Assembly (NCBI GenBank): GCA_014361205.1
Contig: JACIVZ010000012.1
Location: forward strand, 1 to 33,189
DNA: 33,189 nt
Direction: 5' to 3'
Origin: Methanomethylovorans sp.
Lineage (GTDB): Archaea > Halobacteriota > Methanosarcinia > Methanosarcinales > Methanosarcinaceae
Notes under the pieces: generated by a model
The model's database searches: none
Told to the model about the DNA's origin: nothing
The model's input: the letters and a program-made list of their open reading frames with translations, nothing else
Shown here: piece after piece, positions 606-7,832 of the stretch
Position numbering within the stretch: position 1 is the stretch's first letter
Layout of the letters: each line of letters opens with the position of its first letter
Made by a program: the position numbers and the translations under genes

Positions 606-1925
606 TCACATGCCAAACTTTTTCATCATTTTCTGCATGTTGAATTTTCCGCCACGCAGACCTTTCATTGTGTTTTGCATCGTTTTGTAATAGCGCAATA
701 ATTCTCTTACATCATCAGGACTACAGCCAGATCCTATGGATATCCTCTTTATTCTGGAGCTGCCTATCACACGAGGATTAAGCATTTCTTCTTCTGTCAT
801 GGAATCCATAATCACCCTATATCGTGTAAGTTTTTCGCCTGTCATCTGATATGCTTCTTCAGGAACTTTCAACCCCATACTTCCTAAAGGCAGCATCTGC
901 ATTATCTGTTTCATAGGTCCCATTTTGTTGAGGGTTTCCAGCTGTTTGTACATATCTTTAAGAGTAAAACGTCCTCTCATTATGGCTTCCATGTCAAGCT
1001 CTTCATCCTTCAGATTATCTTGAGCTTTTTCTATAAGGCCTCTTATATCACCCATTCCAAGCAGCTTGGATATGAATCTGTCTGGTTCGAACTTTTCCAG
1101 GTCATCTGGAGTCTCTCCTACACCGATGAAAGCGATTGAGGAATTAGTTTCAGAAACAGCAGATATAGCCCCACCACCTTTTGCAGTTCCGTCAAGTTTG
1201 GAGATGATAACTCCTGAAATACCAATAGAATCATTAAATGCACGGGCTTGTTCACTTGCCTGCTGGCCAATCGCACCATCTAGCACAAGCAGTTTATAAT
1301 CGGGATGTGCAATGTCATTTATTTGTTCCATTTCCTCTATGAGATCCTTTTCAAGAGAGTGGCGCCCGGCAGTGTCTATTAGTATAACATCATATTTTTC
1401 CATTTCTTTAAGGCCTCTCTCTACAATACCAAGTGCGTCAGAGTTCCCTTCTTCCCCGTAAAAAGCGACATTCAGCTTATCACAAAGCGTCTTTAACTGC
1501 TGAAAAGCTCCTGGTCTGAATGTATCAGCACAAATCACAGCAGGTCTTAGTCCTTTACGCTGGAAATACCTTGCAAGCTTCGCTGTAGTGGTGGTCTTTC
1601 CGCTACCCTGCAACCCTACCATCATTATTTTCTGAGGTTTGAGAGGAATATCAGTACCTTTTCCGATTATATTTATGAGTTCCTGATATACGATCCTTAT
1701 CACATGCTCTCGCGGATTCATACCTGCTGGTATATCTTCCTTCAAAGCACGTTCTTTGATATGGTTAGACATTTTCATGACAAGCTTGACGTTAACATCA
1801 GCCTGCAGCAATGCTCTTTGGATGTCCTTTACCACTTCATTGACCGTGTGTTCGTCTATCCTGCCGGACTTGACGAGTTTCTTAAGTGCATCCTGTAAGG
1901 AGCTTCCAAGTTTTTCCATTACCAT
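606..1925 (-). CDS. srp54: Signal recognition particle 54 kDa protein
   Basis: This is the GTPase of the signal recognition particle. It binds signal sequences as they leave the ribosome and docks with FtsY at the membrane. The 439 residues show the full N-G-M order. The N helical bundle covers about 1-95. The G domain has a P-loop GLQGSGKT at 104-111, DTAGRH for G3 and [12 protein letters not shown] for G4/G5. The methionine-rich M domain fills about 300-439 and includes the RNA-contacting GSSRIKRIS-like stretch. The start [10 protein letters not shown] matches the usual beginning of archaeal SRP54. The gene stands alone between the convergent guaAA and the co-oriented usp gene. It ends with TGA. 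Confidence 0.97.
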
Positions 1926-2151: not shown

Positions 2152-2616
2152 TCACTTTACTACCATTACTCGTGTCTTTGCATGCCTTACAACGTCTACA
2201 GCCACGCTGCCCATTACTATTCTGTCGATGCCGGATCTTCCCAGTGTTCCCATTACTATCAAATCAATGTCGTTCATCTATGCAAAGTTAATTATCTCAG
2301 AACCTAGATATCCTTTGAGCATCACAGTTTCAACTTCAACTCCGGCTTTTTCTGCCATGTCTTTCACAACATCAAGTGTTCTTTTCCCATCCTCTTCGAG
2401 ACGTTCTTGAAATTCCTTTTCCGCAATTGAAACTGCTTTTGGAGGCTCAATAGGCATACCAAAATATGAAAGATGAGGTATATAAGGCAAGACATTAACT
2501 GCAAAAAGTTTTGCACCTGCCAGCTTTGCTATCTCTATTGCAGAGGACGCTGCTTTCTTTGCATTTTCTGAGCCATCAGTTGCAATGACTATTTTTTTGT
2601 ACATTTCTCTTTGCAT
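2152..2616 (-). CDS. Universal stress protein (UspA family) with an in-frame TAG at codon 113
   Basis: This UspA-fold protein would have 154 residues if the TAG at 2278-2280 is read as an amino acid. The first part begins MQREMYKKIVIATDGS, the usual first strand with the ATP-site aspartate. After the TAG the same frame continues MNDIDLIVMGTLGRSG, then DRIVMGSVAVDVVRHAK and VMVVK, ending at TGA. GTLGRSG with the later GS is the standard Usp nucleotide-binding motif G-2X-G-9X-G(S/T). No indel is needed: the TAG sits where homologues usually have FAEENDIDLI, with glutamate at that position. The start is set by GGGGAGTGG six bases before the ATG. Three readings are possible: UAG decoded as pyrrolysine (known in Methanosarcinaceae), stop-and-restart at the immediately following ATG, or a nonsense mutation. 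Confidence 0.8.
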
Positions 2617-2790
2617 ATTATACCACTCCCCGTTTATTCCTTTATTAAAAGTTAAGCCGCCCAGAGAATAAAGCTTTTGGGCAAGTTTAATATGGGTTCA
2701 ATGGAATAGCTTTTCCTCCCCTTACTTCACATAGATATAATCAACAGATAAGCATCAATTTGAACTTAATAAAAACAGTTTCTTCTAAAT

Positions 2791-7035: not shown

Positions 7036-7832
7036 TAAGAGCAGCAGTCACAGGTGCTTCAGGAAGGATGGGTAAGCTTATTATTTCTAATATTATTTCT
7101 TTGAAAGAAATGGAACTGTCGGCAGCATTTGATTTGGTGAACATTGGTCAGGATGCAGGAGAAATAGCACAGGTTGGTCATCTTGGTGTTCCCATATCTG
7201 ATGTAAAAGATATGGAAAAAATCCTTAAGGAATCATACACTGATGTACTGATTGATTTTACGATATCAGATGCAACGGTTGTCAATGCTCCCAGAGCAGC
7301 TTCAGCTGGCGTAAATCTTGTTATCGGAACAACTGGTTTTTCCAATGAGCAAAGAAAAATTATTGAAGCAGCCATTAATGAACATGGTGTTGCAGGCATA
7401 ATCTCTCCGAATTTCTCAATAGGTGTAAATGTCTTTTTCAAAATAGTAGCGGAAGCTTCTAAATATCTTGAAGATTTTGATATTGAAATTATTGAAGCCC
7501 ACCATAATAAGAAAAAAGATGCCCCAAGTGGCACTGCCATGAAAGCGGCAGATGTGATCAGTGCTGTATTGGGTGGCAAAAAATATATCTTCGGTCGCCA
7601 AGGTCTTGCTCCCCGCAGCAACGAAATAGGCATCCATGCAGTGCGTGGTGGAGACATTGTAGGTGATCACACTGTACTGTTTGCCGGAGATGGTGAACGT
7701 ATTGAGATAAAACATCAGGCTCATTCCAGGCAGGCTTTTGCATCAGGTGCTGTAAAGGCTGCAGCATGGATATGCAATGCAAAGCCGGGGATTTATACAA
7801 TGGAAGACATTCTGGGTCTTCAATTATATTAA
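7032..7832 (+). CDS. dapB: 4-hydroxy-tetrahydrodipicolinate reductase
   Basis: This enzyme reduces the DapA product with NAD(P)H to tetrahydrodipicolinate. The 266-residue protein has the Rossmann motif GASGRMGK at about residues 8-15 and GTTGF near 95. The catalytic signature EAHHNKKKDAPSGTA near 150 carries the histidine and lysine. The ATG at 7032 is preferred over a GTG at 7023 because it overlaps the dapA stop in the ATGA arrangement and gives the normal IRAAVTGASG start. Transcription probably ends in the T-rich tract before the convergent pyrI. Confidence 0.96.
   Translation: MIRAAVTGASGRMGKLIISNIISLKEMELSAAFDLVNIGQDAGEIAQVGHLGVPISDVKDMEKILKESYTDVLIDFTISDATVVNAPRAASAGVNLVIGTTGFSNEQRKIIEAAINEHGVAGIISPNFSIGVNVFFKIVAEASKYLEDFDIEIIEAHHNKKKDAPSGTAMKAADVISAVLGGKKYIFGRQGLAPRSNEIGIHAVRGGDIVGDHTVLFAGDGERIEIKHQAHSRQAFASGAVKAAAWICNAKPGIYTMEDILGLQLY

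Follow-up and report, generated by a model that had tools for sequence, protein, structure and literature searches.

The window, that is the whole stretch of 33,189 nucleotides that was analysed, contains a reading frame for a universal stress protein (usp) on the minus strand, from position 2616 to position 2152. This frame comprises 154 codons followed by a TGA stop and is interrupted at codon 113 by an in-frame TAG (2278-2280, minus strand). With the TAG translated as a residue, the frame displays no other stop and no indel, as the first-pass annotation had described. Both sides of the stop match the Pfam profile PF00582 (Usp) above the cut-off of 24 bits (51.3 bits for the upstream part, 48.0 bits for the downstream part and 113.1 bits for the whole), and the gene belongs to the Usp family. 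The predicted truncated product of 112 residues (2281-2616, minus strand) covers the positions 1-99 of the 141 positions of the profile. The 41 codons located 3' of the TAG (2155-2277, minus strand) begin with an ATG. They include the nucleotide-binding motif G-2x-G-9x-G-S (residues 123-137; 2206-2250, minus strand), which was recognized from the translation and from the alignment to MJ0577 (1mjh), and the residues Gly123, Gly126, Gly136 and Ser137 are all encoded after the TAG. The first-pass annotation had placed this motif in a C-terminal half; the whole motif is present, but the part that contains it represents about a quarter of the protein (41 residues). Upstream of the gene, a putative ribosome-binding site GGGGAGTGG (2623-2631, minus strand) is similar in the sister genomes and a BRE/TATA-like promoter box CCAAAAGCTTTAT (2668-2680, minus strand) is identical in five Methanomethylovorans copies, both signals being judged by eye. 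The adjoining gene downstream of usp is an intact srp54 (606-1925, minus strand), and this neighbourhood is kept in the sisters.

The closest named records to the genome of the window (G000) are Methanomethylovorans MAGs, in agreement with the lineage near Methanosarcinaceae that had been proposed. A co-linear and uninterrupted usp orthologue was found in five relatives with 69-80% amino acid identity; four of them (G001, G002, G003 and G005) belong to the same genus and one (G009) to the same family. As in the window, srp54 adjoins usp in G002, G003 and G005. The alignment of the sister homologues at codon 113, which the first-pass annotation had suggested, reveals CAG in G001 and GAG in G002, G003, G005 and G009; none of the five relatives with an orthologue has a TAG at this position. 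These uninterrupted orthologues with a sense codon exclude chance as the source of the interrupted frame. The premature stop is private to G000 and the orthologues are intact elsewhere, as expected of a nonsense pseudogene; of the options that had been listed for this codon, nonsense mutation is the one that holds up. No close orthologue was found in G004, a different species, where the best match reached 44%. Five other Usp domain matches are present in G000 and, together with the situation in G004, they indicate that the loss of usp is tolerable.

Values of dN/dS were obtained with purpose-written codon models without site-rate variation and are rough; for usp, the models were run on the best of three trees. 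The dN/dS of usp is 0.20 on the G000 branch and 0.13 elsewhere, and that of the part located after the TAG is 0.15 versus 0.09; neither pair is different. Neutrality along the whole G000 branch was rejected for usp (2 delta lnL of 9.95), and the same comparison restricted to the 41 downstream codons gave 2 delta lnL of 4.3. These values indicate that purifying selection has acted on usp during most of its past. The normal selection of the usp flanks and of the downstream part suggests that the stop is recent, although usp by itself would date it weakly, as the neutral share of the G000 branch is estimated near 5% with a range from 0 to about 40%. It had been proposed that the downstream part was either under selection or very recently changed; we retain the recent change, and not a selection acting on this part now. 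Three changes private to G000 are clustered near the stop (H103Y, P104L and K114M), and this cluster may represent early decay or chance.

The assembly of G000 is a draft of 170 contigs (2.15 Mb, 99.85% complete). With profile searches, PylS and PylD were detected above the cut-off in the five other genomes of the genus (5/5). In G000, the best PylS score was 26.1 bits for a cut-off of 178 (profile TIGR02367) and the PylD score was 19.6 bits for a cut-off of 150. The profile PF01409 had been considered as a PylS marker; it matched only PheS and SepRS and was replaced by TIGR02367. A DNA query made of 20 kb of the island of the sister G002 (tRNA-Pyl, pylSBCD, mttBC and mtbBC) recovered neither pylTSBCD nor mtt in G000, the only matches being mtbBC (85%) and weak paralogues. 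A search for pylTSBCD had been recommended by the first-pass annotation, and the absence of these genes from the results is half of what it had named as evidence against its proposal. The genes mtmB and mttB are also absent from G000. Only the tail of the island mtbA is left, and the two other genes of the MtaA/MtbA family score like copies that are present in the sisters too. A single pylS copy was found in each sister genome. PylS is also below the cut-off in G008, G017, G021 and G034 of the family; some of these genomes are incomplete, and further losses of the Pyl system are possible.

In G005, the methylamine/pyl island is located on a 2.43-Mb contig (C2); the two regions that flank it there are joined in G000 on a single contig of 9.5 kb (C153). 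The segment C153:520-4615 aligns to G005:C2:47066-42970 and the segment C153:6684-9453 aligns to G005:C2:7149-4401. The flanks in G005 consist, on the left, of a RamA-like gene and a TPR gene and, on the right, of a radical-SAM gene, an aRF1-like release-factor gene and argS (names given by eye). About 35.6 kb of the sister segment, between positions 7360 and 42970 of G005:C2, are missing from C153. The breakpoint is inside mtbA, of which the last 44 codons (stop included) remain, with 40 of the 44 identical in translation (91%) and with 18 synonymous versus 4 nonsynonymous codon differences. In this scar region (L106, G000:C153, 4500-6700), the mtbA stub adjoins the radical-SAM gene, and a gene of 415 codons with a PAS domain is also present. 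The latter lies between the stub and the left flank, displays only short and weak matches in the island region of G005, and may have been gained in G000 or lost in G005. In G005, inverted near-identical blocks (99.6-99.7%) that include mtbA are localized near both island ends (L064/L065). We rejected the possibility that C153 results from a collapse of the assembly at these inverted repeats: the stub is oriented like the left copy, whereas a passage into the right copy would have given another orientation, and the intervening PAS-domain gene also disfavours it. The aRF1-like gene (archaeal release factor) is found beside the island in G005 (G005:C2:44061-45329) and beside the scar in G000 (L106, 2240-3484). 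As C153 carries both island flanks contiguously, the absence of the pyl genes is not simply an assembly gap. The G000 lineage once had the island and then lost it by deletion, at least as far as the assembled strain is concerned.

An intact mtbC-mtbB-permease cluster, where the dimethylamine methyltransferase gene mtbB retains its conserved TAG, is present elsewhere in G000 (L080, G000:C127, 11184-14828) and shares its neighbourhood with the second mtbB of G005. The MtbB protein is 93-95% identical to those of the sisters. With a dN/dS of 0.02 on the G000 branch, mtbB shows no decay, and a neutral portion of this branch above about 1% is disfavoured (2 delta lnL of 4.7 at 1%). The nearly undecayed state of mtbB and of the mtbA stub makes the loss of the island look recent. 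The absence of decay in mtbB implies that Pyl decoding worked until very recently or that it still works from unassembled genes. A divergent second mtbB-like gene of G002 (L112, G002:C69:5311-6441), about 50% identical, contains one TAG and one TGA in frame and may be decaying. In the 328 kb of G000 that were sampled (about 275 genes), usp and mtbB are the only genes with coding sequence on both sides of a stop that two adjacent genes do not account for. Two other TAG/TGA candidates were discarded: L102:3319, examined in full, is an ordinary gene end that is followed by another gene, and L107:19202 was judged from its sequence context only to be a gene junction. The share of TAG among stop codons is 13% in both G000 and G005 and is uninformative about the use of Pyl.

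From these data, the explanation that we favour, and consider probable, is that a dispensable Usp paralogue recently acquired an amber nonsense mutation, in a genome that has recently lost its pyl genes. A single base change, from CAG or GAG to TAG, would have created the stop; the deletion of about 35.6 kb would have recently removed pylTSBCD, leaving UAG to act only as a stop. Translation would most likely end at codon 113 and yield a 112-residue fragment devoid of the nucleotide-binding loop and of the last strands, and the usp of G000 would be a young pseudogene. We infer that the base call of the TAG is correct, that the Usp product ends at codon 113 and that no pyl copy exists outside the assembly. 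The order of the two events leaves room for a variant that overlaps this explanation, where the TAG would have arisen with the pyl genes still present, would have been partly suppressed with Pyl and would have become a full stop after the deletion. Both the usp stop and the island loss look recent, and Methanosarcina acetivorans can insert Pyl at UAG codons of unrelated genes (PMC2933860), but usp alone dates weakly; this variant is a modest possibility. A consensus error or a base from a minor strain, with a true sense codon and an intact usp, is unlikely. It would concern a single base in a draft of 170 contigs, it would agree with the normal selection of the usp flanks, and apart from mtbB the usp stop stands alone in the sampled sequence. 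However, the nearby changes H103Y, P104L and K114M would need more errors or an independent origin, and full-length frames are seen for the rest of the genes listed for the window.

The pyrrolysine option of the first-pass annotation is difficult to reconcile, for the present day, with the profile scores, the DNA search and the scar, and the recent loss of the whole pyl island makes such a reading of the usp TAG unlikely. One form of it supposes that decoding persists from pyl genes that were unassembled or unbinned, and that Usp is a methylamine-unrelated gene newly captured by the Pyl code. The mtbB result, with its intact TAG and its strong purifying selection, would by itself also fit such genes and is the main argument against our explanation. 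The 41 usp codons after the TAG are well preserved, and the emergence of a TAG in an unrelated gene has a precedent (PMC2933860). Residue 113 would moreover occupy a tolerant position; it aligns in MJ0577 to the point where a helix ends, ahead of a core strand. Against this, the island site is contiguously deleted, with one pylS per sister; at 99.85% completeness, neither pylTSBCD nor the island mtbA, mttB or mtmB is present, and the TAG is found in no sister. We consider this persistence quite improbable. The stop-restart option, in which pieces of 112 and 41 residues of a split gene would work together, was suggested by the ATG located directly 3' of the TAG. This ATG is preceded by no ribosome-binding site, unlike the real usp start, it is found only in G000 (AAG or AAT in the relatives), and a piece of 41 residues is unlikely to fold alone; this option is scarcely plausible.

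The usp of G000 shares with the nonsense-mutated pseudogenes of bacteria and archaea a single in-frame stop in an otherwise intact frame, a recent origin and redundant paralogues. It differs from them in that its lineage was, until recently, able to translate this very stop codon as pyrrolysine. In the genes of the methylamine methyltransferases MtbB, MtmB and MttB, an in-frame TAG is likewise flanked by coding sequence, but their TAG is conserved and is part of the enzyme whereas that of usp is private to one genome. The combination of pylS, pylT and pylBCD that characterizes genomes with pyrrolysine proteins is lacking in the G000 assembly. Conservation of the TAG, another mark of such proteins, is lacking in usp; it is not required, since it is lacking as well in Thg1 of M. 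acetivorans, where a TAG gained in a non-methyltransferase gene is read as Pyl (PMC2933860). In both Thg1 and usp, the TAG is unique to one species and the gene is unrelated to methylamines. UAG decoding has been reported to be independent of a specific mRNA context (PMC8211752). The pyl system is complete in M. acetivorans and lacking in the G000 assembly, and the usp TAG would resemble that of Thg1 in its origin and not in its decoding. The MJ0577-type Usp (PDB 1mjh) belongs to the same family by sequence (E-value of 2.2e-12) and has the same nucleotide-binding motif but is uninterrupted; the predicted 112-residue product of G000 falls outside this nucleotide-binding class, as its motif is encoded after the TAG.

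The usp stop is thus most likely a real and recent nonsense mutation, ordinary and of little importance by itself, in a setting that is unusually informative. With its readable breakpoint and its nearly undecayed mtbA stub, G000 looks like a snapshot taken just after the loss of the 22nd amino acid, where mtbB is stranded with a codon that apparently can no longer be read. Such genomes offer a natural test of the fate of UAG-containing genes once the expansion of the code has been lost.
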